Part shown: positions 1,178-40,535 of the stretch, one piece after another | Layout of the letters: each line of letters opens with the position of its first letter | Numbering within the stretch: position 1 is the stretch's first letter | Virus record (IMG/VR): IMGVR_UViG_3300045051_000201 | Span: 1-41,261 of that record | Strand: one strand, 5' to 3' | Length of the DNA: 41,261 nt | Origin: a virus | The notes under the pieces: model-generated | Databases searched by the model: none | What the model was told of the DNA's origin: nothing | Seen by the model: only the letters and a program-made list of their open reading frames with translations | Position numbers and translations under genes: made by a program

Positions 1178-1527
1178 CAAATTTTCATAACTTTTTCACA
1201 GTGTCCCAAAAAAACAGCGATAGCCCCAGGCTTCCCCCGGCCGATAGCCGTTTTATCGACGTGGAGGGACAACACGTCGCGGTCGTTGGCAATCGCTCCA
1301 GCGTCGGAGATCCCGTCAAGAATACACTTGACCGGGTTGTCTATATCGATATAGCCCGAGAATACAATCCTGATGGCATACGGCGGATCGACGATTACCG
1401 GACAAAAACAATTCGACGCTATTATTTTCTTAAACGTACGATAGTCTTTTGTCAGTGTAAAATTGCCGTTATACTTCCGGTTGACCGAAGGGATTTTTAC
1501 GTTGTCTATGTCAATAATCTTGATCAT
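1174..1527 (-). CDS. rusA-like: RusA-family Holliday junction resolvase
   Basis: A 117-residue protein with the RusA signature: VIVDPPYAIRIVFSG followed by DIDNPVKCILDGI (conserved DxDN..K..LD) and NDRDVLSLHVDK, which corresponds to the family's conserved acidic (usually DD) and lysine segment. RusA enzymes are homodimeric Mg2+-dependent endonucleases that resolve four-way junctions. Phages use them to debranch concatemers before packaging. The length matches the family (about 120). The start at 1527 has a GAGGG site and overlaps the helicase 3' end by 17 bases, implying coupling. The first aspartate of the usual DD pair reads ND here, a possible divergence in the active-site region. Confidence 0.8.
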   Translation of the reverse strand: MIKIIDIDNVKIPSVNRKYNGNFTLTKDYRTFKKIIASNCFCPVIVDPPYAIRIVFSGYIDIDNPVKCILDGISDAGAIANDRDVLSLHVDKTAIGRGKPGAIAVFLGHCEKVMKIC

Positions 1528-3103
1528 CGTATACCCTCGATATTATTTTAGGGAAATGACTATTGCAATCGACATAGATGGTTGACGGCTTTTTGTACGC
1601 TTCGCGACAAGCTAACCCGTCTTCGATGGTGTCCGGTATCGGGTGCCCTGGTGGTAAATTATCCTTTAACCATCTAACCGCTTTTTGTTTCGCGTAGCCT
1701 TCATGCTCTATGCATACCCATTCGTCAAAGTGAGTAAATTCATCGATCATATATGATACCCGCATCGACGGAGAACCGCTTTTCGATACGTGGTAATAAT
1801 AATTCACGTCAACAATTGCATATTCTTCGGGCGGTTTATATTTTGAAATTGGTTCGACGTTAGCCGCTTGCCCGTCGTGCTTTTCGTCCTCGGTTATCGG
1901 CCATGCATAGCCACACGCCGGACATTTGAGCGCGGCCATGAATACCGGCTCTTTACAAATCGGGCACTCCTTCATCGGCGCGGTCTTTATACCCTGGCCG
2001 TCCACGATTCCTTTATCCTGAACCTCTATTTTATCAACAGGCCCGTGCATCAATATGTTTCCGGCATAATCCAAAACAAGACAATCGGCTTTGCCTTCGC
2101 AGATTCTAAAACCGCGTCCGACCATCTGGTAATACAAGCCAGGTGAGGCAGTGGGCCGCAGCATGACTATACTATCGATGTGGCGGGCATTAAATCCGGT
2201 TGTCAGCATATCAACGTTGGCGATATACTTTATTTGTCCATCGCGGAATTGACGGATGGTATCCTGGCATTCAACCTGGGAATGGACGACGCCACACGGT
2301 TGCCCGAACGCCTCGACCACTTCGGCTACTTTATTAGCGTGAGCGATCGACGCGCAAAAAATCAAGACGTGGTTTCGTTCGGCGGTGAGGGAGAGCATTT
2401 CTTGACACGCCTCATGGACGACGTCAAGGCACCGGAGGGACAACTCCGACTCGATATACTCCCCGCCGCGCTTATGTACGCCGTTAACATCGGCGCGAAC
2501 GACACCGGACTTCCCGACAAGCGGGCACAGGAACCCTTCATCGATCAGCCGACGGATGGGGGCGCGGAATATGATATCATCGAATATTGCGCCTTTTCCG
2601 GTCGTGAGCAAACCAGAGTCAAGGCGGTACGGCGTAGCCGTTAGCCCGATGATCTTTGTGAAATGCGCTTGATCTTCTAAAAATCGGCGGTACATCCCCT
2701 CGCCTTTATGTGGAATTAAATGACACTCATCGACGATAATCAAATTGAAATCGCCTAATTCTTTAGCGCGGCGATGGACCGATTGAATACCGGCGAAGAT
2801 AATCTGGTTTTTTGTGTCCCGTGAATTAAGACCGGCGGAATAGATACCGGCATCCACCAGGGTGCCCAGGTTGGCAATCAATTCATGAAAATTCTGTTTT
2901 ATCAATTCTTGTTGATGCGTCAAGAAAAGAATACGGCAATCGGGGTAGTCGGTAATAATCCATCCGGCGATCATCGCCTGAACAAGCGACTTTCCCGATG
3001 CCGTCGGTAATTCAATCAGCGGATGCCCGGCGCCATCGCCCGCAAAATAGTTTTTAATGGCGTCAAGCGCCGCTGTTTGGTACCAGCGTGGAGAGTAGTT
3101 CAT
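1511..3103 (-). CDS. SF2 DNA helicase (DECH box)
   Basis: This 530-residue ATPase has the full superfamily-2 set: WYQ near the start (Q-tip-like), Walker A LPTASGKS (residues 32-39), DECH box in LIIVDECH (about 120-127), motif III GLTATPYR, a C-terminal RecA domain with TTGFNARHID, and motif VI QMVGRGFR. A zinc-ribbon (CPICKEP...CPACG) lies at about 370-390. Such helicases sit beside RusA, Sak-type ATPases and Cas4-like nucleases in phage replication/recombination modules and probably remodel forks or branched DNA. The start ATG overlaps the stop of the 51-residue gene upstream (ATGA). It is complete and looks active. Confidence 0.9.
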   Translation of the reverse strand: MNYSPRWYQTAALDAIKNYFAGDGAGHPLIELPTASGKSLVQAMIAGWIITDYPDCRILFLTHQQELIKQNFHELIANLGTLVDAGIYSAGLNSRDTKNQIIFAGIQSVHRRAKELGDFNLIIVDECHLIPHKGEGMYRRFLEDQAHFTKIIGLTATPYRLDSGLLTTGKGAIFDDIIFRAPIRRLIDEGFLCPLVGKSGVVRADVNGVHKRGGEYIESELSLRCLDVVHEACQEMLSLTAERNHVLIFCASIAHANKVAEVVEAFGQPCGVVHSQVECQDTIRQFRDGQIKYIANVDMLTTGFNARHIDSIVMLRPTASPGLYYQMVGRGFRICEGKADCLVLDYAGNILMHGPVDKIEVQDKGIVDGQGIKTAPMKECPICKEPVFMAALKCPACGYAWPITEDEKHDGQAANVEPISKYKPPEEYAIVDVNYYYHVSKSGSPSMRVSYMIDEFTHFDEWVCIEHEGYAKQKAVRWLKDNLPPGHPIPDTIEDGLACREAYKKPSTIYVDCNSHFPKIISRVYDDQDY

Positions 3104-7171: not shown

Positions 7172-7191
7172 CAAATTAAAAAGGCTTGACT

Positions 7192-9012
7192 ATGGCACGA
7201 CTACTTTCCGACGTGGTCCGCGACCTATGGGCACGACAAGACGCGCTCAATATTCCAAGGGTTAGCGTTTTCTTATGCTCAAAAAACAAAGTGCCGTTTT
7301 ATCGTCGCGGCCATAAGTACGGTGGCGGTCATACTTCCGCAACAACCGACAACGACGTCATGCTCGATATGTTCGACGGTTTCACAGCCGCCACTAATCA
7401 CATCGGCATCGCAGGAGGAAGCGGCTGCGGTATATTTGTTCTTGATATCGACGTCAAGAACCCGGCAACGCCGGAACAATTCCGCGACACCGGCCAGGTA
7501 GAAGAGTGCATACGGATACAATACGGCGACCTTCCAAAGACAATCGAACAGATAACCCCATCACACGGTAAACATTTATTCTATAAAAACCCGAATGTCG
7601 GAACGTGCAATGATTTTTTTATCGTAAAGGAAACCGGGTTAGCATGTGACATTAAAGGCGTCGGCGGTTATTTTGTTCTTTACGATTATGATGTTGACTT
7701 TTCCGAAGCGGCCGATGCACCGGAATGGATTTTAGAACACTTTGCCGAACGTGAAAAGGAAAAGAAGGAAGCACTAAAACCTGGTGACGTCATAAAGAAG
7801 GGCAACCGTAATAATGCGCTTGCATCGGAAGCGGGGCGATACTGGAACCTCGGTGGACCGCCGGAAGAGCTGCAATGCTATCTTCACGGCGTCAATAAGC
7901 TATATTGCGATCCGCCGCTCCCAGACAGGGACATTGACAAGATAGTACAATCGGCCCAGGACAATTTCCATCGGGATTATGAACGTAACGACGTAAAGGA
8001 ACAGACGCCGCTATCAGAAAAAATAAAAACAATGTCCGATCTACTTTCCCCTCAGCCTCCGGTCGAGTGGATCGTCAAGGATTTTATCGCTGAAGAAAAT
8101 CTGTCAATCGTCTACGGTGACAGTGGAAGCGGGAAGACGTGGATGATGCTCCACATGATGGGATGTATAGCCGTTGGCAACGACTGGATGGGGAAAGAAG
8201 TCAGGCAGGCACCGGTTCTTTTGATTGACGAAGAAAGCGGCAATAACCGATTAGCGCGACGTATGCAAAAAATAATTCCGATAATGGGCGGCGACGAAAC
8301 AACGCCATTTTATTCTATCAGCATGGCTGGCGTCGATCTCAGGGATGCATCTGTATTATTCGACATTGAAAAAATCATCATCGAAAACAAAATCAAATTA
8401 GTATGCCTCGACGCGCTCATGGACCTGATACCAGGTGCCGATGAGAACAGCGTCAAGGAAATACTGCCAGCATTTTCTGGACTTAAAAAGATAATAGAAA
8501 AATTGGGAACGACATTCGTGATGATTCACCACTCAAAAAAAGACGGTGGCGGGTATCGTGGATCTTCAGCCATCAAGGGTGTTGTCGATACCATGATAGA
8601 AATTGAAAAGCCGTTATTGTCCGACATTATGAAAGTTGCAATGACAAAAAACCGTGACGGCGAGCCTGGAACATTCATGGCTAAAATGGTATTTACTGAT
8701 GTATCTTTTCACCTCGAGGAAACAACCGCACAACCTGAAGGACCATCAACGGCTGAAAAATTCATTCTAAGATTCCTATTGGAAAACGGCCGGTCATTAA
8801 AGAAAAACGTCGAGAACCAGGCATCCTGCGAGGGAGTCAGGAACATTCAGCGCACATGGACCAAGCTTCTTCAGTCCGGAATTATTGAGAAAGTACCCGA
8901 TATGAAGATGAAAAATAACCAGGCAGTAATGCAGATTGTCGTGGGAAAAGAGGACGAAGTCCGCACCATTTTAGAGCAAAACGAGGTCGGAAATCTTGAA
9001 AATATCATGTAA
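7192..9012 (+). CDS. PrimPol-helicase replication protein
   Basis: A 606-residue bifunctional replication initiator. The N-terminal half is an archaeo-eukaryotic-type primase/polymerase: VLDIDVK with Asp85 and Asp87 as metal ligands, later SHGKHLF with the catalytic-type histidine, and DIKGVGGYFV. A short linker with RNNALASEAG (PriCT-like) follows. The C-terminal half is a RecA-fold RepA/DnaB-like helicase: Walker A YGDSGSGKT (308-316), Walker B LVCLDALMDLIPGA, and MIHHSKKDGGGYRGSSAIK. A winged-helix-like tail ends it. The ATG at 7192 is preferred to the TTG at 7186 because an AAGG site lies seven bases upstream. It primes and unwinds phage DNA; no polymerase is encoded, so host Pol III is presumably used. 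Confidence 0.9.
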   Translation: MARLLSDVVRDLWARQDALNIPRVSVFLCSKNKVPFYRRGHKYGGGHTSATTDNDVMLDMFDGFTAATNHIGIAGGSGCGIFVLDIDVKNPATPEQFRDTGQVEECIRIQYGDLPKTIEQITPSHGKHLFYKNPNVGTCNDFFIVKETGLACDIKGVGGYFVLYDYDVDFSEAADAPEWILEHFAEREKEKKEALKPGDVIKKGNRNNALASEAGRYWNLGGPPEELQCYLHGVNKLYCDPPLPDRDIDKIVQSAQDNFHRDYERNDVKEQTPLSEKIKTMSDLLSPQPPVEWIVKDFIAEENLSIVYGDSGSGKTWMMLHMMGCIAVGNDWMGKEVRQAPVLLIDEESGNNRLARRMQKIIPIMGGDETTPFYSISMAGVDLRDASVLFDIEKIIIENKIKLVCLDALMDLIPGADENSVKEILPAFSGLKKIIEKLGTTFVMIHHSKKDGGGYRGSSAIKGVVDTMIEIEKPLLSDIMKVAMTKNRDGEPGTFMAKMVFTDVSFHLEETTAQPEGPSTAEKFILRFLLENGRSLKKNVENQASCEGVRNIQRTWTKLLQSGIIEKVPDMKMKNNQAVMQIVVGKEDEVRTILEQNEVGNLENIM

Positions 9013-10078: not shown

Positions 10079-10106
10079 TTGACAAATTTAGTATATTATG
10101 AATTAT
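10079..10106 (+). promoter_or_regulatory. Possible promoter of the sugar/radical-SAM operon
   Basis: TTGACA (10079-10084) in an AT-rich stretch; the best -10 is AATTAT (10101-10106) at 16-base spacing, only 4/6. The start codon at 10121 would follow a very short leader, with GGGG as ribosome site. The perfect -35 hexamer and low GC compared with surrounding coding DNA make a start point here plausible but unproven. Confidence 0.4.
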
Positions 10107-10120
10107 GGGGGCAACTGAAA

Positions 10121-10996
10121 ATGAAAACTATTAGATATTTACATTATCGACTTCAATGGTTCTTGGCTCGATGGACGGGAAAACTTGTCCACGTCGATAT
10201 CGAGCTGAACAACAACTGCAATCAGAAATGTATTTCCTGCTGGCATCACGCTCCTGGCAAACTGCCTTTTAAGATCGGATCAATCTCAAAAGAAAACGCG
10301 AAATTCCACCTGTCTAACTTCCGCAAGTACGGCGCGTTGTCGTGCAAACTCAATCTTCGCGGTGAGCCACTGCTCTACAGAAATATCGATGAAGTAATTC
10401 TATTCGCCAGCCGCCTTGGATACGTCGATATTATGATCAATACAAACGGCGTCCTTCTTAATTCGGATATGATCCACCGGCTGAACGCATCCGGCCTGAC
10501 AACGTGCATTATATCCGTCGATTCATGGAACAGAAATCTGTATTCCAATCTCCACGGCGTACCGCCGGCGGAACATGATTTATTGCTCAGCAATCTGGCG
10601 TACCTACGATGGATGCAGCGGATTGGATCGCTGAAATTTAAAGTTGTATTAAACTACCACGTCAACCGGTTTAATGAAAATGAAAGCGATAGTTTTTACC
10701 GTGAGCACTTTTCTGATTTCAAATTAGTAAAGCGCAAAACCGAACGGCGGCACGGCGCAGACATAACACTTTCCAAAAAACACCGAAACCGGAAAAAGAA
10801 TTGCCCGCACGCCATGCGCCGGATAGCCGTTACCGTCGAGGGCCATAAATATCCGTGTTGTGTGTGCTACGACAATCCCGCTGATATCAGATTCAATGAT
10901 TTTATAAAAGACCGCGAAAAATTTATTAAGCGTTATCGATCGGGTGATATCCCAAAGACGTGCCGAAATTGTACGTCAGGAGATATATGGAAATAG
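10121..10996 (+). CDS. Radical SAM enzyme with SPASM-like C-terminus
   Basis: A 291-residue protein. Residues 33-40 contain CNQKCISC, the CxxxCxxC motif that binds the SAM-cleaving 4Fe-4S cluster. LNLRGEPLLY (about 75-85) corresponds to the GGEP-like SAM motif of family members such as MoaA. MINTNGVLL follows, typical of the barrel. The C-terminal part has seven further cysteines, including CPHAMRR, PCCVC and CRNC, as in SPASM/twitch domains that hold auxiliary clusters. Such enzymes act on peptides, sugars or other small molecules by radical chemistry in the cytoplasm. As the first gene of a sugar-type operon it may alter a sugar precursor, but peptide modification is equally allowed. Start chosen at ATG 10121, not the TTG at 10079. 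Confidence 0.88.
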   Translation: MKTIRYLHYRLQWFLARWTGKLVHVDIELNNNCNQKCISCWHHAPGKLPFKIGSISKENAKFHLSNFRKYGALSCKLNLRGEPLLYRNIDEVILFASRLGYVDIMINTNGVLLNSDMIHRLNASGLTTCIISVDSWNRNLYSNLHGVPPAEHDLLLSNLAYLRWMQRIGSLKFKVVLNYHVNRFNENESDSFYREHFSDFKLVKRKTERRHGADITLSKKHRNRKKNCPHAMRRIAVTVEGHKYPCCVCYDNPADIRFNDFIKDREKFIKRYRSGDIPKTCRNCTSGDIWK

Positions 10997-12300
10997 AAAG
11001 CGTAGGCATCATCGTAACGGCTCGGGTCAAGTCAAGCCGGATTCCTGAAAAGGTATTGCAAACTATCAATGGCAAGCGCGCCATTGATATTCTTTTATCC
11101 AACCTTAAGCGCCAGGACCGGTTCCCAGTCGTTATGGCGATTCCGAAGAACCATGATGATGATATACTTGAAGACATAGCGACCAGCCGAGGCATTGACT
11201 ACTATCGAGGCGAAGACGATAGCCCTCTTCACCGATTAGTTGCCGCCGCTGAGAAATTAGGATTTGAATATATTGTGCGCGTGACCACCGACGATATTCT
11301 TATTGATTCACAGATTTTAATAAATCAGGTCCGGTTCGCACTTAACGGCGGTCTTGAATATTGCTTTATCACCAAGATGCTCCAGGGCGCGGCTGCCGAA
11401 GTCATAAAACTATCAGCGCTAAAAGACGTCGTAAAGCGCGTCGGCAACCAGCCCGTGGAGTTTATTTCATACTATTTGAAAAACCAGTACAAGACAAAAG
11501 AATACTTCCCGCCGGAAGCGTACCGGTTTAGCTATCGCCTGGTCCTTGACTACCCCGAAGACTTAATGCTCATGCGATTGGTCTTCGCCTGTTTGCCCGA
11601 GCCAATCAATACCCTGGATATTATACACTTCCTCCGACAGCATCCGTACTTTTTGCAGATTAACCATTTGCCAGAGGTGACCGTATATACTTGCAACCAC
11701 AATACAGGCCGCTTTATTGTAGAAGCGATGGATAGCGTATTCCGCCAAGAGTTCAAGGATTTCGAGTATATACTGATAGACGACAAGTCAAGCGACGACT
11801 CGATGAACATAATCACCGAATACTGGACCAACCTCCCGACAGACAAGCAAAAGAAAATGAAGGTGTACCGCAATGAAAAGAATATTGACCTGGCTTCTTG
11901 CTCCAATATGGCTCTTGCTCTTGGTCGCGGCCGTTATATCATTCGTCTTGATAGTGATGATATTTTCCTTCCTGGGATTCTCTCCCAAATGGTTGAGCAA
12001 CTACAACTTGACAACAGTCAAGCGGTCTTGTCAGGCTTCACCCGAATCGCCGAAGACGGAAAAGACATTGCAGTAATCGACCGTAACGAATGGCATCCGG
12101 CGTGTGCGCTCTTGTCACGATGGGCGGTGAATGAAATCAAGTATCGTGACGGTGTTAAGTACGCCGAGGGCGATGAGTTTTACAACCAATTCAAAAAGAA
12201 ATATAGGGTTTCGTTTATCAAGGATTCACTTTGGAAATATCGGCAGCGTGAAGGCCAAAAGACAGCGCAGCCGGATCATCCGAATAATACGGTTAAATAA
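10987..12300 (+). CDS. Cytidylyltransferase - family 2 glycosyltransferase fusion
   Basis: A 437-residue two-domain protein. Residues 1-225 match SpsF/KdsB-type cytidylyltransferases: GIIVTARVKSSRIPEKVLQ (nucleotide loop with the signature Arg and Lys), YYRGEDDSPLHRL, and IVRVTTDDILID (metal Asp). Residues 231-437 match GT-A family 2: EVTVYTCNHNTGRFIVEAMD, YILIDDKSSDDS, and the DxD motif in IRLDSDDIF (Asp312, Asp314). One polypeptide could thus activate a sugar acid as a CMP-sugar and transfer it. The ATG at 10987 overlaps the radical-SAM stop, with AGGAG upstream. The fusion looks complete at both ends, so it is unlikely to be an accident of truncation. The exact sugar is not knowable from motifs. 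Confidence 0.85.
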   Translation: MEIESVGIIVTARVKSSRIPEKVLQTINGKRAIDILLSNLKRQDRFPVVMAIPKNHDDDILEDIATSRGIDYYRGEDDSPLHRLVAAAEKLGFEYIVRVTTDDILIDSQILINQVRFALNGGLEYCFITKMLQGAAAEVIKLSALKDVVKRVGNQPVEFISYYLKNQYKTKEYFPPEAYRFSYRLVLDYPEDLMLMRLVFACLPEPINTLDIIHFLRQHPYFLQINHLPEVTVYTCNHNTGRFIVEAMDSVFRQEFKDFEYILIDDKSSDDSMNIITEYWTNLPTDKQKKMKVYRNEKNIDLASCSNMALALGRGRYIIRLDSDDIFLPGILSQMVEQLQLDNSQAVLSGFTRIAEDGKDIAVIDRNEWHPACALLSRWAVNEIKYRDGVKYAEGDEFYNQFKKKYRVSFIKDSLWKYRQREGQKTAQPDHPNNTVK

Positions 12301-12569
12301 TGGCGCAAGATATACTGACAATCGACCGTGAGAAATTCAGGGCGGAAGTAACCCGGATTTCTTTTTCACAGTTAAAGAGCATTCTTGAAGGGCTCTTCAC
12401 GTTTATCAAGGAACATGCGTTGACTCTGCCTATGGATACGCTTATTGACCTGGAGCGGAAACAGACGATTATATGGGCTGAGCTTCAGCGGCGCGGGCAT
12501 CTAAGGCAAAAGGACGTGGAGCTTTTTCATAAATGGTTATTCTCGAAGCATAACAAAAAGGTATTTTAA
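12300..12569 (+). CDS. 89-residue helical protein, unknown
   Basis: A small, mostly alpha-helical protein without cysteines or membrane segments. It starts on the stop codon of the fusion gene (TAATG) and its stop overlaps the next ATG (TAATG), so it is locked into the cargo operon. No domain is recognised. Its place between the transferase fusion and the aldolase suggests an accessory subunit of the pathway, but that is only context. Confidence 0.65.
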   Translation: MAQDILTIDREKFRAEVTRISFSQLKSILEGLFTFIKEHALTLPMDTLIDLERKQTIIWAELQRRGHLRQKDVELFHKWLFSKHNKKVF

Positions 12570-13276
12570 TGATCATCGCCGGACCGTGTAGCTATATTGA
12601 TTTATCAGATGACGGCGAGATACTCGATACCGCCGTTGAGCTCAAAGGCGTCGCCGATTGGTATAGAGTCAAGCCATATCTTGGCGGAACCCGCCCTGAC
12701 CGGTTTATGAAAGGCATGGAGTACAGCGCACATCTTATGCTGAAGCATATAAACAGCACCATTATGCCGGTAGGTATCGAGGTGCAGACGGCAGCGCAAC
12801 TTGTAGAGATGCACACGGCGATCTCTTACGCATGGATCGGAGCCAGGAACAGCGCCAACTATGGGTTGCTTGAGGAATTACGTTTTTATAAGGGCCCGTT
12901 ACTGATAAAGCGCGGGCCCGCTATGACCGTTGACGAGACTATCGGGCTTTATGATATACTTCGGGATATTTATAAATTCGAACCGATGATTATTGAGCGC
13001 GGGATTGTGACCATTGACAGGACGGATACCTCGAGATGGAGCCCTGACCTTAAAGGAGTGATTAGAATAAAAAATGAACGCCCCGATATATTCAGGAAAT
13101 TGGTTATTGATTGCAGTCATTCAGTTGGCGTTGCTAATTATGTGGCTGATACTTACCGCGCTTTCAAGGCGATAGGCTGTCAGCATTTTATGTTTGAATG
13201 TACGGCCAGCGGCAAGAGCCGAACGGACCAGGGACAGATGATAAGTGTAAAACAATTAAAGGAGATATTATGCTAA
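12569..13276 (+). CDS. DAHP/KDO8P synthase-family aldolase
   Basis: A 235-residue TIM-barrel enzyme of the class I DAHP synthase / KDO-8-P synthase superfamily, which condenses PEP with an aldose phosphate to give a 3-deoxy-ulosonate phosphate. Visible motifs in order: IAGPCS (metal Cys7), VKPYLGGTRP, WIGARN, LLIKRGPAM (PEP-binding Lys/Arg), IIERGI, VIDCSHSVG (metal His184) and MFE. WIGARN, IKRG and ERGI with a following T..TR-like segment are closest to the AroA(type I-beta) DAHP synthases. The protein is shorter than standalone DAHP synthases (about 260-340) and lacks a regulatory domain. Beside a cytidylyltransferase it more likely feeds a CMP-ulosonate than aromatic synthesis; this is inference. 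Confidence 0.85.
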   Translation: MIIAGPCSYIDLSDDGEILDTAVELKGVADWYRVKPYLGGTRPDRFMKGMEYSAHLMLKHINSTIMPVGIEVQTAAQLVEMHTAISYAWIGARNSANYGLLEELRFYKGPLLIKRGPAMTVDETIGLYDILRDIYKFEPMIIERGIVTIDRTDTSRWSPDLKGVIRIKNERPDIFRKLVIDCSHSVGVANYVADTYRAFKAIGCQHFMFECTASGKSRTDQGQMISVKQLKEILC

Positions 13277-14586
13277 TCAAGTACAATTGCCCTATTTGCG
13301 AAGCAAATGATTGGGAATACCTCGATCACCTGAGGGACCAGAAATATTGGTACGTCCGCGAAATGCGGGAAGAAGGTGAGCCCGTTGGGTTTAAGATTTG
13401 TAAAGACTGCGGCTATGTGTCCTATGACTATATAGACGAAAAGCGCCTGGCCGATATCTATGATCTTCAGCGCCCGGTTATGACCGCGAACAATATCACG
13501 ACAGCCAACCGGAAGAACCACTACCACGCACAATTTCTTGACGGAATAACCATTGAGGGCAATTGCCTTGACGTCGGATGCGCCCAGGGCTCGTTTCTTA
13601 ATTGGCTGCATGAAGCGCGGGGGATAGCAAAAGGCCGGCTTTTCGGAACGGAGTACAGCAAGAGCTTCGGGAATTGGTGCAAGTATGTCTATGGTATCAG
13701 CTCGGATCCTTCGAACGAAAGTTGGGTGGGCGGATTCTACGACTTTGTGTCATACTACCACGTACTGGAACATGTACAATATCCTGGACAGGAACTCGAG
13801 AAGATAAAACAGCGCTTAGTCGAGGGGGGGCTAGTTTATATTTCGGTGCCGACGTGGTTCGATGTTTGCGAAGAGGCCAGCGGCGCAATCCTTAATGACT
13901 TTGAGAATTATTTCCACCTTAACCACGTTAATGTATTCAGCGTTAAGTCTTTCAACAACCTTCTCAAAAAGCATGGCTTCAAAGTAATTAAGATGGACGA
14001 TACGCTGTATGGCTATACGGTCCTCTGCGAGATCGACGAAAGTATCGACAAGACAATCGAAAAGGAAGACTATAAAGAGATCATAAAAATCATCGAAGCG
14101 CAAAAGGCCGCGATTGAATGCTTGCAGCCGGAAGTCAACAATCCGCAGCGGGCGACGGAGCTTTATCCTAAATATCCTGACGCTTATATTTACTGGGCGC
14201 TAGATAAAAACAATATGAAGAAATTTGATCCGCAGGAGCAGATATTGATGAAGGGTCTTTCTCTCATGCCGGGTAATCATCGGCTCCGCGGGCAGTTGGC
14301 ACGGCTGTATTATCAATGGGACGAGAACAGCTCGGAAAAATTAAAGTTCTATTCAAACAATATTAAAAAAGCAGAGTCGATCTTGATTGATTTGTTCAAT
14401 GAAAAATCAGGCAGTGAAGAGCATCTATTCATGCTGGCGATGATTAACCACCGATTCAAGAAATGCTCGGGGCAGGCAATAAAGATGCTCGATATCTGTG
14501 CTAAAATAAACCCGCTTCGATTTGTTGAGTGTATGAATAACATCGGGGCGATCTGCAAGGAGTACGACGATAGTGGGGAAGAATAA
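13270..14586 (+). CDS. Zinc-ribbon class I SAM methyltransferase with helical-repeat tail
   Basis: A 438-residue protein. Residues 5-45 hold two CxxC pairs (YNCPICEAN and KICKDCGYV), a zinc knuckle often placed before sugar methyltransferases. Residues ~95-240 are a Rossmann methyltransferase (Methyltransf_23 type): motif I CLDVGCAQGSFLNWL, then YYHVLEHV and GGLVYISVP. The last ~170 residues are helical and look like TPR-type repeats (for example YWALDKNNMKKFDPQEQIL and HRLRGQLARLYYQW). It starts inside the end of the aldolase gene with AAAGGAG. It probably methylates a sugar, glycan or peptide made by the operon. The repeat tail may bind a partner or glycan carrier. Confidence 0.85.
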   Translation: MLIKYNCPICEANDWEYLDHLRDQKYWYVREMREEGEPVGFKICKDCGYVSYDYIDEKRLADIYDLQRPVMTANNITTANRKNHYHAQFLDGITIEGNCLDVGCAQGSFLNWLHEARGIAKGRLFGTEYSKSFGNWCKYVYGISSDPSNESWVGGFYDFVSYYHVLEHVQYPGQELEKIKQRLVEGGLVYISVPTWFDVCEEASGAILNDFENYFHLNHVNVFSVKSFNNLLKKHGFKVIKMDDTLYGYTVLCEIDESIDKTIEKEDYKEIIKIIEAQKAAIECLQPEVNNPQRATELYPKYPDAYIYWALDKNNMKKFDPQEQILMKGLSLMPGNHRLRGQLARLYYQWDENSSEKLKFYSNNIKKAESILIDLFNEKSGSEEHLFMLAMINHRFKKCSGQAIKMLDICAKINPLRFVECMNNIGAICKEYDDSGEE

Positions 14587-14950
14587 AAGCTCGGCGAAGG
14601 TAGTTAAGACATCGGAGGTCGTAACGGATACCGTTGACAAGCGGACACGCGGGCACCGAAAAGGTCAATGTACTAACCCGAACGGCAGACCGCCGAAGGG
14701 TACGGCGTTGACTGATATCCTTCGGTTGAAACTTGATAAAGAGAAGTTTGTTTATTTGCTTATCGAATTGGCGTTCAAGGAACGCGATCCGGCAATCATC
14801 AAGTATATCTACGACCGATATGAGGGGAAGATACCTGAAAACATCACGTTCGGCGATGGGTCCGGCGGGCAGATGAGATACGAGATTACATTTAGAACCG
14901 TGAAGGAAGTCGATGGCAGACAAGCCGCCGAGACGCAAGATATGGATTAG
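14573..14950 (+). CDS. Terminase small subunit candidate (DUF5681-like)
   Basis: A 125-residue protein with RKGQCTNPNGRPPKG near residue 30, the basic GNPxGRPxK-type motif of DUF5681 proteins that precede large terminases, followed by a helical segment and an acidic end. Such proteins are taken to be DNA-recognition (small terminase-like) subunits. Translation starts at GTG with AAGGAG nine bases upstream and overlaps the methyltransferase end; its own end overlaps the large subunit by 38 bases. The small-subunit role is inferred from position. Confidence 0.72.
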   Translation: MGKNKSSAKVVKTSEVVTDTVDKRTRGHRKGQCTNPNGRPPKGTALTDILRLKLDKEKFVYLLIELAFKERDPAIIKYIYDRYEGKIPENITFGDGSGGQMRYEITFRTVKEVDGRQAAETQDMD

Positions 14951-16166
14951 TATCAGCCCATGGCAGCAGCAGGTCCTCGATGCGCTTAGGAAGTATCGAT
15001 TTGTTGTTGTCAGCGCCGGGAGGCAATCAGGCAAGACTTTTTTAGGTGTCATTGCCGTAACAATAAACGAGAGCCTGGCAAAGCCTGATTGGGTATCGTG
15101 GTGGGTTGCGCCGACATACCAGAATAGTAAGGTAGCGTTTAGGCGTTGCATAAAGCTCATGAATGAGCGGTTTCCCGAGATTAAGATCAGAACAAACAAA
15201 CAGGAGTTGCGGATTGAGTTTCCAAACGGCAGCGCGATTGATTTTAAGTCTGCAGACCGTGAAGAAGGTCTTCGGGGTGAATCCGTAAATTTTCTCATTG
15301 TTGATGAGATGGGGTTCATTAAGCGCGATATTTGGCAATTTGCCTTACGTGGAACGATAACCGCGACGAATGGCCGGGCGTTGTTTATTGGGACGCCGAA
15401 AGGCAAAAACCTATTCTACGAGCTATACCAAAAAGGGCAGGACCGGGAAGAATCTGACTATATTTCTTTTCAATTTGAAAGCCGAGTCTCTCCCTATTTC
15501 TCGGCGCATGAATGGGAACAGGTAAAGAGCCTTCCTCAACGGGTATTCGAACAGGAATACAAGGCGCACTTTATAGACTCAGGCGGCGAGGTATTTAGGA
15601 ACATAAGCGATTGCATCGGCGGAGAACTACGACCGCCGAAGACAGGCCAACGATACTATGCCGGGGTTGACTTAGCGCGGACCGTTGACTATTCGGTAAT
15701 ATGTATTTTGAACCAGGATCGTCAACTAGTGGCATTTGATCGGTTTAATACGCTATCATGGAAGGTCCAGAAAGACAGGATCATTGCGCTGTGCCGGAAA
15801 TATGACGCCCATACCCTAGTGGATAGTACCGGCGTCGGGGATCCAATTTATGATGATTTATGCCGGGCCGGGCTCGGTGTGGAGTCGTTCAAATTTAGCA
15901 ATCTATCAAAGCGACAGATTGTCGAGGCCCTGGCAATGGTGATCGACAGGGCAGAAATACGGTTCCCTGAAATACCGGAGCTAATCAATGAGTTGGAAAT
16001 CTTTACTTTTGACGAAACATCGTCTGGACTTATTCGGTATGCCGCGCCTGATGGTATGCATGATGATATTGTTATGGCGCTCGCTCTTGCGAACTGGGCG
16101 GCGGGTGGCCAGGCGAGCCCGGAGGACTTTACGGATTCGGGCGAACGGACAAACTATTCCTGGTGA
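14913..16166 (+). CDS. terL: Terminase large subunit
   Basis: A 417-residue packaging motor. The ATPase half has Walker A VSAGRQSGKT (about residues 32-41) and Walker B FLIVDEMG, followed by the GTPKGKN coupling motif. The nuclease half has the RNase H-like acidic residues in YAGVDLARTVD, LVDSTGVGD and GMHDDIVMALA. The length is normal for Terminase_6-type proteins. It is complete and probably active, translating DNA into the prohead and cutting concatemers. Family type alone does not reveal whether packaging is cos or headful. Confidence 0.94.
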   Translation: MADKPPRRKIWISISPWQQQVLDALRKYRFVVVSAGRQSGKTFLGVIAVTINESLAKPDWVSWWVAPTYQNSKVAFRRCIKLMNERFPEIKIRTNKQELRIEFPNGSAIDFKSADREEGLRGESVNFLIVDEMGFIKRDIWQFALRGTITATNGRALFIGTPKGKNLFYELYQKGQDREESDYISFQFESRVSPYFSAHEWEQVKSLPQRVFEQEYKAHFIDSGGEVFRNISDCIGGELRPPKTGQRYYAGVDLARTVDYSVICILNQDRQLVAFDRFNTLSWKVQKDRIIALCRKYDAHTLVDSTGVGDPIYDDLCRAGLGVESFKFSNLSKRQIVEALAMVIDRAEIRFPEIPELINELEIFTFDETSSGLIRYAAPDGMHDDIVMALALANWAAGGQASPEDFTDSGERTNYSW

Positions 16167-23362: not shown

Positions 23363-24385
23363 ATGATTTCAAAAGACGAAGTTAACGAGCAGAGTAAAAG
23401 CGCGGTCCGGCAATGGTGGCCCCTGTGGACCGAAAACGCGAGGGTCAATGGGGAGAAGTACCGGAAGGAAGGCCGAAGCCATAAGGATCTTCTTTTTTCC
23501 GGTGTAGGGAAAACGATGTTATGTGTGGCACTGTCGCCGTCTTTTGAACATGAGATAGAAACCATCAAACAAGCCGACCGCAATGCTGTAGATATAGCCT
23601 GCGTTGATAAAGCCTTCCCGGCGCTTATGGATCGGGGGATTAAACCCAATTACGTGGTTATCGCCGATGCCATTATTGATTATTCATGGTTAGAGAATCA
23701 CATCGACCAGACCGAAGATATCGCCTTAATCGCCAATGTATGTTCTAATACGGCGTGGACGCTAAACTGGAAAGGACCGGTTTATTTCTATACCAATAAG
23801 GATAACATTGAAACCGAAAAAGAACTTATGCAAATTTCGGGCTGTAAAGAACTCATACCGGCGTCGTCGAACGTGGGAAATACTGTCGTTGTTTTCACGG
23901 TGCAGGTTATGGGTTATGACCAATATCTTTTGATCGGCTATGACTACGGATGGACCGCAACTGACAACTACTATGCGTTCAAGGATTCCGACAAGCGGTA
24001 CTGGATGAAACATTTTACGGCTATTAACCATGAAGGGCGGATGCTCGATACGTCGCAGAATTTGCACTTTTCATGCCGGTGGATAGCCGACTTTTTTAAT
24101 GGAATGTGCGTACCGCATGGAATCAGAGTATATAATTGTTCACGGAATTCATACGTCGCGCTGCCGTATATCAGCCTTAAAAGAGCGCTGAAGATGGCGA
24201 AGCGTCGTAAGATTTCAGACATCGATAAGAACAAGATCGCGTCGGCGTTTGTAGAAAACGAATCATCTACGCCGATGGAATTTAATCAGGAAGCAATCAA
24301 GAATAAGATGGCTAACCGGCAATTCGTCGGAGCCATTATGCAATTTATACAACCGGAGCGTTTCAAATGGATTCAATCGTTATAG
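23363..24385 (+). CDS. DUF115/Maf-like protein (possible glycosyltransferase)
   Basis: A 340-residue protein. Residues ~50-110 match the DUF115 (MptE-like/MAF_flag10) fold: CVALSPSFEHEIETIK, a strand with DIACVDKAFPALMDRGIKP (GIKPxxV-type) and NYVVIADA. SSNVGNTVVVFTVQVMGYDQ and LIGYDYGW follow, also typical. Bacterial Maf proteins transfer nonulosonic acids such as pseudaminic acid to flagellin; archaeal MptE makes pterin diphosphate. The usual GPS-like N-terminal glycine motif is altered here (LSPS). It lies inside the tail operon between the terminator-like and tail-tube genes, so it is expressed with virion proteins. It is the best candidate for attaching the sugar made by the 10121-14586 operon; that link is inference. 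Confidence 0.78.
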   Translation: MISKDEVNEQSKSAVRQWWPLWTENARVNGEKYRKEGRSHKDLLFSGVGKTMLCVALSPSFEHEIETIKQADRNAVDIACVDKAFPALMDRGIKPNYVVIADAIIDYSWLENHIDQTEDIALIANVCSNTAWTLNWKGPVYFYTNKDNIETEKELMQISGCKELIPASSNVGNTVVVFTVQVMGYDQYLLIGYDYGWTATDNYYAFKDSDKRYWMKHFTAINHEGRMLDTSQNLHFSCRWIADFFNGMCVPHGIRVYNCSRNSYVALPYISLKRALKMAKRRKISDIDKNKIASAFVENESSTPMEFNQEAIKNKMANRQFVGAIMQFIQPERFKWIQSL

Positions 24386-24585
24386 AATACGTTGATCATC
24401 GGCGGATATATATTCCGAAGCTTTTTTATTATCCCGGCGGAGTTATTCTTCCTGCTATGGATAATAAAATCAAAGTGACGATAAAAGAGTACAACGGGCT
24501 CATGCGCCAAAAAAATGGTTATAAAGACTGCTTTGTGATTGTAAAATCAAAACCGGTTAAGACGGAAACAGAAGAGGCATTATAA
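24367..24585 (+). CDS. 72-residue protein, unknown
   Basis: A small beta-rich, basic protein overlapping the DUF115 gene end by 19 bases and the tail-tube start by one base. Features: hydrophobic strands (SIVIEYVDHRRIYIPKLF) and a lysine/glutamate tail. No domain is recognised. Such small genes before the tail tube often encode head-tail joining factors. Confidence 0.65.
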   Translation: MDSIVIEYVDHRRIYIPKLFYYPGGVILPAMDNKIKVTIKEYNGLMRQKNGYKDCFVIVKSKPVKTETEEAL

Positions 24586-25619
24586 TGACTGTAGGAAATG
24601 GTGTCCCGCTTTTTGGGTATGATTCAGCTATAGCGGTCGCAAAAGAAACGACTTATGGCACGTTTGTCACGGCGTCAAGCTTTATCGAATTTCTCACCGA
24701 GTCTATCAAGGTGACGAGGGAAGAGATCAAGCTTGAATCTATCAACAACAGCCGCGATTATTCGAAACGGATGATCGGCAACGAATCCGTTGAGGGCAGT
24801 ATCGAAGCCCACTTGAATATTGCAAGCGATGGCGTAGTCAATATCATCAAGCAGGCTATCGGCGGTACTGTTGCATCGACAATAGTAGTCCCTGGGGTTG
24901 AGTACCTACATACCCTTTACCCTGGCGATATGGAAAATAACCGCTCAACCACGACCGCTACTGATATGAAGGGGTTGTCCTTCATCGTCAGGCGTGGAAC
25001 AACCGCAGGATCATTGAGCGTTTTCAACTACTTCGGGCTGCGCGTTAATAACCTTACCATCAAAGGCGAAGTTGGCCAACCGATTATGGTTACCGCCGAT
25101 ATGATAGGGCAGGGAATGAGCCTGACGTCTACCTGTCCTACGGTGGCGCTATCGGATGTGCTTCCTGTTAACTTTACCGGTATAACGATTAAGACCGGTG
25201 ATTCGCTATCGTCGGTATCCGCCGAATATTTCAAAAGCTTCGAGTTTACGCTGGCTAATAATATTGACGCACAGAGATTCCTGGGATCTCGTCAAGTTGG
25301 CATCTTGCCTCCAATTAAGCGTGACGTGACTCTTAAACTCGCGCAAAACTTCGATACCATGACCAGCTTTAACCGATTTTTCTCAAATACGGTTACATCA
25401 ATATCGATTATTGGAGATTCTCAACAAAGCATTGGCGCTGGTTCGACGACGTATAGCTTCCAGATAGACCTTCCTAACTGCTACTTTAATAGCAACCAGC
25501 CGGAAGTTAAAGGCAGCGGCGTCCTGGAATATTCGCTAGATGTAAGGGCAATGCGTAACGCTTCTATCGGTTCGACGTTCCAGATGTTAATCAGGAATGG
25601 TACGGCCAACTACACTTAA
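24585..25619 (+). CDS. Major tail tube protein
   Basis: A 344-residue beta-rich protein typical of siphovirus tail tube proteins: an early AKETTYGTFV segment and repeated Gly/Thr/Ser beta strands (for example GNESVEGSIEAHLNI and KGSGVLEYSLDVRA). It directly precedes the frameshifted tail-assembly chaperones and the tape measure, the standard order. It is longer than minimal tube proteins, so it likely contains an extra Ig-like or insertion domain. It stacks as hexamers around the tape measure. Confidence 0.82.
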   Translation: MTVGNGVPLFGYDSAIAVAKETTYGTFVTASSFIEFLTESIKVTREEIKLESINNSRDYSKRMIGNESVEGSIEAHLNIASDGVVNIIKQAIGGTVASTIVVPGVEYLHTLYPGDMENNRSTTTATDMKGLSFIVRRGTTAGSLSVFNYFGLRVNNLTIKGEVGQPIMVTADMIGQGMSLTSTCPTVALSDVLPVNFTGITIKTGDSLSSVSAEYFKSFEFTLANNIDAQRFLGSRQVGILPPIKRDVTLKLAQNFDTMTSFNRFFSNTVTSISIIGDSQQSIGAGSTTYSFQIDLPNCYFNSNQPEVKGSGVLEYSLDVRAMRNASIGSTFQMLIRNGTANYT

Positions 25620-36413: not shown

Positions 36414-36547
36414 TTGCATGGCCTCCCATGATTATTATGATGCCCATAGTGGTTATGGTGCAATTGCTCATTATACCAGCTTTTATACTGCGGCGTATTG
36501 CAAGCGGTAAAGAGCACGGTGATAAGCACGAATATTAGTGTTTTCAT
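36410..36547 (-). CDS. 45-residue His-rich lipoprotein
   Basis: Signal [16 protein letters not shown] with a lipobox (TAC, Cys16), then a short tail containing many histidines (HHNHYGHHNNHG). ATG 36547 overlaps the integrase stop and has AGGGG upstream. Its stop overlaps the next lipoprotein start. The His-rich tail would sit in the periplasm and could bind zinc, nickel or copper. It may act with the next lipoprotein. Confidence 0.65.
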   Translation of the reverse strand: MKTLIFVLITVLFTACNTPQYKSWYNEQLHHNHYGHHNNHGRPCK

Positions 36548-37401
36548 TTTATCCCCTGACTTTTGGCATCCGGACGGCCGTGAAAATAATGTTCGATAGT
36601 GGTCGTGGCGGATGAATGCCCCAGGGCTTTCTGGACTTGATCCACGCTTAATTTCATCACGTCTTTGAGATACATAGCTTTACTATGCCTAAATGTATGC
36701 GGGTGGACGTGCTTTTCAAGTATTTCCATGCTTGCCGTGTCAATCAGACGCCATACGGCTGCGCGGTGGTATTTCGTTTCCTGCTTTTTGTTCCTTTTAG
36801 CATGGTTACAAATCAAGTATACTTGCCCGTTGAAATAATCACGGCATTTTTGGAAAAGGTCAACGGACATATAGACGACGTTTTCCTTCCGTCCCTTCCC
36901 GATGATTTTAATTTCGATATACCCTCCGGACTCTTTACAATCGGCTAATTTGATATTGCACATTTCCGAAACTCGAAGCCCGGTCCAGAATAAAACTTGC
37001 ATAATTAAAGACACGTTTTCAGGTGCCTTTTTAATGAGCTTGTCAATCTCGGCTTTTTTAAGATATCCGCTGTCCGTTACGCCCCGCATACGGCTGGCAG
37101 GGCGAACGGCATCCAGGCTTTCCGTGAGGTCCGGCAGGCGGGGATCGTGCCGGTATATCTTGCCCATGACTGACTTGACGGCGGCAATGGATAGGGCCAG
37201 GGTTGACTGGTTGTTAATAGACCGCAGCCACGCTAAAAGGCTATCAAGGTCTTTTTCCTTGCCATGTGTTGTGCAATATTTGAGGTATTGCGCCATGCGC
37301 CCCCGGTACGTTTTTCGCGTTTCATCGGACACGGGGAGGCGGTCGATAACGGCCAGATAGTCATAATTGGGGACGACAGTGAGGGATTTATTTTGTTTCA
37401 T
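36544..37401 (-). CDS. int: Tyrosine recombinase (integrase)
   Basis: A 285-residue site-specific recombinase. The N-terminal SAM-like core-binding domain (~residues 20-100) is followed by the catalytic domain with all key residues: Arg143 in TGLRVSE, a lysine in the IIGKGRKE beta-hairpin, His235 and Arg238 in HPHTFRH, His262 in LGHSS, and the nucleophile Tyr272 in EHYFHG. It lacks the extra N-terminal arm-binding domain of lambda Int. It overlaps both neighbours, so it is transcribed with the pentapeptide and lipoprotein genes. It implies a temperate phage. No attP was identified. Confidence 0.92.
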
Positions 37402-37861
37402 AATCTTTAATCATTTTAATATATTGACCGTATTCTGATATCTGCTCGTCGGTGTAATTGTGCTGATTGCCTATGGTTTGATATTTTTTCGCCCACCTAT
37501 CAACGGTATGATCCTCGCACCCGATTTTAATACGGCCGTCCATGTACCATACCGAATGCACCGACCCGGCAATGGTAATAATGGGCAGTTTTATATTTTT
37601 GGCTCCGTACAGGTTGGCCCCGGACAGGTAGGCTCCGGACAGGTCGGCTCTGGGCAGGTTGGCTCCGGACAGGTTGGCTCCGGACAGGTCGGCTCTGGAC
37701 AGGTCGGCTCCGGACAGGTCGGCTCTGGACAGGTCGGCTCCGGACAGGTTGGCTCCGTACAGGTTTTTATCTTTGTTTTTTAATACCGCATCACAGACGT
37801 TTTCATACTCACCGACAATTATTATCTCGCCCGTAAATCTGTTTTTAATTTCTACGTTCAT
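37388..37861 (-). CDS. Pentapeptide-repeat protein
   Basis: A 157-residue protein. After an N-terminal strand region (about residues 1-32), 11 consecutive pentapeptides of A(N/D)LSG/A(N/D)LSR type (residues ~33-87) form a right-handed beta-helix, then a C-terminal domain with Trp/His ([17 protein letters not shown]). Pentapeptide proteins often mimic DNA (Qnr/MfpA) or act as toxins or immunity factors. The start at ATG 37861 follows GGGAGGGTG. The repeats are also near-identical in DNA. Confidence 0.82.
37601..37765 (-). repeat. 11 x 15-bp tandem repeat encoding pentapeptides
   Basis: Eleven 15-bp units with few differences (plus-strand core GGCTCCGGACAGGTC). Most changes swap Asn/Asp or Gly/Arg. 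Such an array can gain or lose units by slippage without breaking frame. Confidence 0.85.
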
Positions 37862-37995
37862 TTTATCACCCTCCCGCACTCTACGCACTTAACCCACGGC
37901 GTTTTAGTCGTATCCGTTTCGACCGTGGCGACGTGCCCGCATGAGGGGCACTTGACGAGGATTTTTCGGTAGCTTGCTTTAATGTGGCCGATCAT
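37858..37995 (-). CDS. 45-residue zinc ribbon
   Basis: A small protein with two CxxC pairs (KCPSCGHVA and KCVECGRV), a complete zinc ribbon. It overlaps the pentapeptide gene start (ATGA) and the upstream gene stop (ATGA), which supports expression. No function is known; the ribbon may bind DNA or RNA polymerase. Confidence 0.65.
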
Positions 37996-40124: not shown

Positions 40125-40535
40125 TTAAACCCTATTATTCCATAAAATTATTGCATCGTCACGCTTATACATATTTTTGCTAACCGCTGGACCATACGCC
40201 CCGCACGTATCACACTTTACTCTCCAATACACATCCCGCTCGTATTTTAAAGCCGTGTCAACAATTCGTGTTCGTATGCTTCCGCAAAAAGGGCAATCTG
40301 TAGGATAACGCTGATTAGGTTCATGCTTTTCTTCTTGCAAAAAGAAATTGACCTCAGTTTCGCATATGGGACAATACGCAACTTTAATATTAACAGGTGT
40401 TTCTTTTAAAGATGTAAATGATTGTTCTCTTGAACAGTGTTCACATTCATATTTTACTTCCCTGGGGTGAACTGGATTTACTCTTTTTTTATTATAATTA
40501 TCAAATGCTTTTTCCAACATTGTTATTTTGCTCAT
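40125..40535 (-). CDS. Lar-like zinc-ribbon protein with extra N-terminal ribbon
   Basis: A 136-residue protein. The C-terminal ~55 residues match the Lar restriction-alleviation family: DCPFCGSIRTRIVD, VKCDTCGAYGP, then AIILWNNRV (conserved A..WN.R). The N-terminal part has two further CxxC pairs (YECEHCSRE, AYCPICETE). Lar of Rac prophage modulates type I restriction, but the domain is widely found in small phage proteins of unproven function. It lies upstream of the methylase fragment. The gene is AT-rich. Confidence 0.75.
   Translation of the reverse strand: MSKITMLEKAFDNYNKKRVNPVHPREVKYECEHCSREQSFTSLKETPVNIKVAYCPICETEVNFFLQEEKHEPNQRYPTDCPFCGSIRTRIVDTALKYERDVYWRVKCDTCGAYGPAVSKNMYKRDDAIILWNNRV

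Follow-up and report, generated by a model that had tools for sequence, protein, structure and literature searches.

The glycosylation of flagellin by Maf in Campylobacter, Clostridium, Geobacillus and Aeromonas combines an ulosonate synthase, a CMP (cytidine monophosphate)-sugar synthetase and a Maf-type transferase. Bacterial Maf places nonulosonates as well as Neu5Ac and Kdo on the Ser/Thr residues of flagellin, and a clostridial Maf does so with Neu5Ac and Kdo in E. coli (PMC11339370); tailoring methyltransferases are common in Maf-dependent flagellin glycosylation (PMC5109656, PMC13317340). According to the title of PMC4065374, flagellin is glycosylated by Maf before chaperone binding and export, which places the action of Maf in the cytoplasm. 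The sps genes of Bacillus subtilis code for a legionaminic acid synthase and an SpsF-type cytidylyltransferase (PMC7439481). Among phages, glycosylation of the capsid and of the tail tube is described for the mycobacteriophages Che8, Corndog and Myrna (Freeman 2023, quoted in PMC12363180). We have analyzed the IMG/VR virus record IMGVR_UViG_3300045051_000201, whose 41,261 bases are the window in what follows (G000 in the comparisons), and describe a cassette of five genes that probably encodes a pathway to a CMP-ulosonate. The pathway would supply a Maf-type O-glycosyltransferase, with a virion protein as its target and the tail tube as the probable one.

The ulosonate synthase, the CMP-sugar synthetase (both present at family level) and the Maf-type transferase are shared with the flagellin systems. 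The differences are that here the system is phage-encoded, the acceptor cannot be phage flagellin, the Maf is short, the synthase is often derived from 3-deoxy-D-arabino-heptulosonate 7-phosphate (DAHP) synthase (DAHPS), a radical SAM (S-adenosylmethionine) protein and a methyltransferase with a tetratricopeptide repeat (TPR)-like domain are fixed members, and no aminotransferase or hydrolase genes were recognised. The mycobacteriophages have phage-encoded glycosyltransferases acting on capsid and tail-tube proteins, as we propose here, whereas the excerpt quoting Freeman describes neither dedicated ulosonate biosynthesis nor a Maf-type transferase for them. The sps genes (SpsE, SpsF) likewise hold an ulosonate synthase and an SpsF-type cytidylyltransferase in one cluster, but theirs belongs to the spore crust and not to a virion, and the window contains no equivalents of SpsC, SpsD, SpsG and SpsM. 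We found no published description of a phage nonulosonate, Maf or radical SAM system in the open-access literature searched. In the reading that we favour, Maf-type ulosonate glycosylation has moved into phages and is joined there with what appears to be a new type of synthase.

Protein families, gene order, synthase exchange, the linkage of the Maf-like gene, its adjacency to the tail-tube gene and the loss of the KPRT motif were all established by sequence and structure comparison. A check of the open reading frames (ORFs) found the five genes at 10121-14586, adjacent ones sharing 1-14 nt, with a primase/helicase before them (7186-9012) and the small and large terminase subunits, TerS and TerL, after them (14573-16166). 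This bears out the first-pass annotation, which had described five tightly overlapping genes between replication and packaging, in their reading frames, flanks and families alike. Four of the five proteins exceed the curated Pfam cut-offs, the exception being a protein of 89 aa that belongs to no known family. Viral-contig scans and profile mapping recovered the same order, radical SAM, fusion, (short-chain dehydrogenase/reductase, SDR), small protein, synthase and methyltransferase, in 15 distinct IMG/VR phage records and in G007, which is almost identical to the window; these records are uncultured and mostly incomplete, and the viral and genome scans use short peptide patterns that may miss distant relatives. 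The homologues thus do occur together, and because the order recurs in 15 distinct records the arrangement is not due to chance. The fusion proteins of the related records are about 30-58% identical to that of the window. The radical SAM gene comes first in all 14 distinct records covering that end, an SDR/epimerase gene is present in 7 of the 15, and four distant relatives fill the small-protein slot with a protein of 110-114 aa. G006 is truncated in the fusion and G027 in the radical SAM gene, and in G004 the cassette is divided between the contig ends. The terminases vary among the records and in one of them (G002, L011) the block is placed between TerL and the portal gene, not ahead of TerS. 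When INPHARED was searched by tblastn, the radical SAM and Maf-like queries gave no match and the aldolase and fusion queries only weak general ones.

Evidence on the product of the pathway comes from an exchange of its synthase. Ten of the records carry a DAHPS-like aldolase, as the window does, and five (G011, G027, G029, G031 and G033) a NeuB-family enzyme (PF03102; E 7.6e-34 in G011). The two types were never found together (0/15): the DAHP_synth_1 profile was absent or far under its cut-off in the NeuB records, and a profile search found no NeuB in the window or in the other DAHPS-like records. In four of the five NeuB records the gene sits in the aldolase slot. Over a tree of the fusion gene the NeuB type requires three changes and a single NeuB clade is rejected (approximately unbiased test, p 1.9e-5), indicating that the exchange occurred more than once. 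Genes that substitute for each other in an otherwise fixed operon usually share their function, and NeuB condenses phosphoenolpyruvate (PEP) with an unphosphorylated aldose to give a 3-deoxy-ulosonic acid. Since NeuB replaces the aldolase in otherwise like cassettes, an ulosonic acid is very probably the product of the aldolase as well.

The active site of the aldolase points in the same direction. The AlphaFold2 (AF2) model (pLDDT, its per-residue confidence, 86) has the TIM-barrel fold of DAHP and 3-deoxy-D-manno-octulosonate 8-phosphate synthases (KDO8PS), with the DAHPS of T. maritima (1vr6) as best Foldseek match (E 1.1e-15, query-normalised TM-score, TMq, 0.81). When the ten phage proteins were aligned to DAHPS, the metal ligands C7, H184, E210 and D220 and the PEP-binding R33, R93, K114 and R156 were found to be kept. 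The KPR(T/S) motif, which binds the phosphate of erythrose 4-phosphate (E4P), is gone in all ten and reads xxGT instead (LGGT, GGGT, MGGT, SAGT or RAGT). The register of the alignment was set by two distant members, L064 with RGGVFRAGT and L066 with RGGIFSAGT, against RGGAFKPRT of DAHPS; the start of L062 was trimmed and its first residues are outside the comparison. It is at this loop that the model is least certain (pLDDT <50, residues 41-43). Compared with the type I-beta DAHP synthases of T. maritima and P. furiosus, the fold, the metal ligands and the PEP-binding residues are the same, whereas the phage aldolase has xxGT for KPRT, lacks a regulatory domain and is found outside an aromatic operon. 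With the E4P motif lost, E4P specificity is not what the sequence suggests. The enzyme probably performs PEP chemistry on a different acceptor, and the loss of KPRT together with the NeuB swap makes an unphosphorylated aldose the probable one. The phosphatase that the first-pass annotation believed to be missing is therefore probably not missing. The sequence profile is closer to DAHPS (4e-29) than to KDO8PS (3e-6), and we have judged a KDO pathway unlikely. Two scans of the GTDB genome collection with short peptide patterns gave no relatives of the aldolase.

A candidate for the transferase is encoded in the tail region. The profile scan of the structural genes gave a PF01973 score of 67 bits (gathering cut-off 34.6) for the Maf-like protein, and such a protein is present in 12 of the 15 cassette records, that is, in 12 of the 12 that are long enough. 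The three records without it (G003, G027 and G033), like the near-duplicate G007, consist of short contigs: the tail region is not reached by G003, G007 or G027, nor, to judge from the near-colinear G029, by G033. In each of the 12 records that have it, the Maf-like gene is followed immediately downstream by the tail-tube gene, and no more than one small ORF separates the two. The AF2 model (pLDDT 84) has the Maf glycosyltransferase 5mu5 as its best PDB match (E 6.5e-10, TMq 0.55), followed by MptE (the 6-hydroxymethyl-7,8-dihydropterin pyrophosphokinase, HPPK, of M. jannaschii, 8sd5) and by human ST8SiaIII, a CMP-sialic acid enzyme. 5mu5 is also the sole PDB match by sequence profile (E 0.003), and the phage protein aligns to its central part. 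Seven phage isolates whose portal, capsid or tube genes are related lack both PF01973 and the fusion, which indicates that neither is fixed in the virion gene set; these phages are distant relatives and the control is partial. In Marinitoga camini virus 1 the gene upstream of the tube-like gene was considered as a Maf and rejected, since it codes for a second tube-like protein. The PHROG families gave no match for the Maf-like protein. In BFVD there are Maf/MptE-like folds from other uncultured phages, and the phage Maf family is thus wider than the cassette set.

Table 1. Coordinates of the cassette and of the associated features in the window
Feature	Position	Strand	Evidence
Radical SAM/SPASM-like protein	10121..10996 (ATG start)	+	PF04055 E 6e-9
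Cytidylyltransferase (SpsF/KdsB-like)-GT2 glycosyltransferase fusion	10987..12300	+	PF02348 (CTP_transf_3) E 4e-14; PF00535 (Glycos_transf_2) E 1.5e-20
Small 89-aa protein between fusion and synthase	12300..12569	+	No family; family alignment
DAHP-synthase-like PEP-dependent aldolase, predicted ulosonic acid synthase	12569..13276	+	PF00793 (DAHP_synth_1) E 3e-15
CxxC-CxxC ribbon + SAM methyltransferase + TPR-like C-terminal domain	13270..14586	+	PF13489 (Methyltransf_23) E 1e-18
Maf-like (PF01973) protein, predicted CMP-ulosonate:protein glycosyltransferase	23363..24385	+	PF01973 E 2e-18
Tail-tube-like protein, candidate acceptor	24585..25619	+	phrog_290 tail E 6e-35
Possible sigma-70-like promoter before the cassette	10079..10106	+	TTGACA-16-AATTAT, 10/12; weak

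In the radical SAM protein, the fusion and the methyltransferase the catalytic motifs are intact. The radical SAM protein has an intact CxxxCxxC and its PDB profile matches (viperin, MoaA, BtrN and BlsE) cover the radical core only. Its earlier label of SPASM-like seems reasonable, given the C-terminal CCVC...CxxC of the protein from the window and, in the G011 homologue, a formal match to PF13186 (SPASM). The fusion family conserves an RxxSxRLPxK-type motif in the cytidylyltransferase and DDxSxD and DxDD in the glycosyltransferase family 2 (GT2) domain, and in the window its ATG at 10987 is preceded by AGGAG. The methyltransferase has the SAM-binding DxGCAxG and two CxxC pairs at the N-terminus; the description as a zinc-ribbon methyltransferase holds for the methyltransferase and for the CxxC...CxxC pattern, while no Pfam zinc-ribbon model matched and the ribbon is assigned from the cysteines. 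The TPR-like C-terminus was seen by profile similarity in the window protein and in the homologue of L054. The flagellin transferase FlmG uses TPR domains to recognise its acceptor (PMC7591256), and by this analogy one may speculate that the methyltransferase acts on the glycoprotein. Promoter and terminator scans of the region gave nothing above the chance level, and the promoter candidate of Table 1 is weak because the total count of such sites in the region equals that expected by chance.

Put together, these data suggest the following route. The sugar would be a 3-deoxy-ulosonic acid activated with CMP, and it is probably a nonulosonate resembling sialic acid. An aldose, host-supplied or locally tailored, would be condensed with PEP to a 3-deoxy-ulosonic acid by the aldolase or, in the sister phages, by NeuB, and the N-terminal half of the fusion would convert it to the CMP-ulosonate. 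Transfer would take place in the cytoplasm, the site of virion assembly, with the Maf-like enzyme placing the ulosonate on Ser or Thr residues of a virion protein, for which the tail tube is the likeliest candidate. Elongation of the glycan may be the work of the GT2 half, and tailoring of the sugar or the glycan that of the radical SAM protein, the methyltransferase-TPR protein and, when present, the SDR. Of the pathway proposed from the letters alone, the making, activation and attachment of an ulosonate are strongly supported by the NeuB/aldolase exchange and the linked Maf-type transferase, and the radical SAM and methyl modification steps remain presumptive. A stronger version, in which a self-contained viral tail-tube O-glycosylation uses a dedicated ulosonic acid made by a new synthase class, a KPRT-less DAHP synthase derivative interchangeable with NeuB, is possible and we put it forward more tentatively.

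Several observations weigh against virion glycosylation by this route. It is based on the comparison of uncultured records, and the sugar, the acceptor and every catalytic activity are what we infer from them. The records share a virion lineage and part of the co-occurrence may be explained by shared descent. At 340 aa the Maf-like protein is shorter than a full-length flagellar Maf, which reaches about 600 aa and has additional domains at both termini, and the MptE pterin kinases share the PF01973 fold. The closest relatives of the aldolase are DAHP synthases of the aromatic pathway, and the NeuB of G027 is located after TerL, outside the slot. Finally, none of the enzymes for an amino-aldose (dehydratase, aminotransferase, acetyltransferase, hydrolase) was recognised in the window, and the SDR is found in seven relatives only; as no other precursor enzymes were recognised, the source of the aldose would be either the host or the radical SAM reaction.

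The same genes could serve other ends. The CMP-ulosonate might be built as proposed and sent to a polymer of the host surface, with GT2 as the transferase, resulting in lysogenic conversion or superinfection exclusion. The phage is probably temperate (integrase at 36544-37401), GT2 domains commonly build surface glycans, and the cassette has weak PHROG matches to GtrB-like O-antigen conversion. We consider this unlikely, given that the cassette is flanked by the genes for replication and packaging and is away from the integrase, that hydropathy found no membrane segments in the cassette proteins or in the Maf-like proteins, that the proteins tested included no recognisable flippase or lipid-carrier enzyme, and that the Maf-like gene is inside the tail module. 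Hypermodification of the phage DNA is the least credible of the alternatives: in its favour are the neighbouring genes for replication and the presence of radical SAM enzymes in some pathways of DNA hypermodification, but neither a thymidylate-synthase-like hydroxymethylase nor a nucleotide kinase was found among the proteins tested, and the cassette is linked to the Maf-like and tail-tube genes. Among virion proteins, host surface and DNA, the three targets named in the first-pass annotation, virion proteins are thus favoured and the other two have lost ground.

It is rather improbable, too, that the product of the aldolase and the fusion is a small molecule or cofactor derived from an ulosonate, the PF01973 protein being an MptE-like pyrophosphokinase. 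The family is named for MptE, 8sd5 was the second Foldseek match, and cofactor pathways commonly use radical SAM and methyltransferase enzymes; yet Maf 5mu5 is the best match by both profile and structure, the PF01973 gene constantly adjoins the tail-tube gene, and the CTP-transferase and NeuB partners are those of Maf glycosylation islands. A true DAHP synthase boosting the aromatic metabolism of the host, among unrelated auxiliary genes, would agree with the profile and fold, which place the aldolase in DAHPS type I-beta. This is very improbable considering the loss of KPRT, the scores under the NCBIfam DAHPS cut-offs (84 bits vs 335; 77 vs 268) and the swap with NeuB in otherwise like cassettes. 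Decoration of a virion protein by the Maf-like enzyme is the explanation we favour.

Some additional observations were made in these and other records. Three proteins of ~700 aa in BFVD from uncultured Caudovirales (A0A6J7X5Q0, A0A6J7XC21 and A0A6J5PVH5, one of them named as a methyltransferase-domain protein) are Maf/MptE-like and possible full-length phage Mafs. A different phage record, G020 (L055, G020:20000-33000), represents a second phage nonulosonate architecture. It combines a distant Maf-like gene (G020:13784-14302) and NeuB (G020:6172-6846) with an SDR (Polysacc_synt_2) and a separately encoded CTP_transf_3; genes resembling GFO/IDH and class III aminotransferases were identified by eye. 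In G011 (L054, 9512-10600 and 904-1884) the NeuB cassette includes an additional radical SAM gene, and the interval from TerL to the portal gene contains a ParB-like gene (by eye) and a 326-aa protein without Pfam match. Upstream of the NeuB-type cassette of L065 there is a nucleotide-sugar dehydrogenase-like fragment (5-607, by eye), a possible precursor enzyme, and upstream of the cassette of L066 a highly repetitive ORF of 378 aa (26-1162) with ~20-aa repeats around LYIDSQASLPALETVGG. In the window itself, a pentapeptide-repeat protein (37388-37888) overlaps the integrase, a protein with a Lar-like restriction-alleviation domain is found at 40125-40535, and two ORFs of the minus strand (709-1125 and 1511-3103) match successive parts of the helicase family phrog_16 (818-923 and 269-761), so that the helicase appears split in two.

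To our knowledge, a sialic-acid-like glycosylation pathway with its transferase has so far been known only as a bacterial system. If our reading is true, phages carry such a pathway and transferase for their own particles, and some of them may make their own sugar coat and not borrow one. This would open a way to test how virions come by a sugar coat and what it serves, be it host range, stability or recognition. A lineage of DAHP synthases may have evolved NeuB-like chemistry, a test case for substrate switching in PEP aldolases, and the short Maf enzyme might become a tool for protein sialylation.

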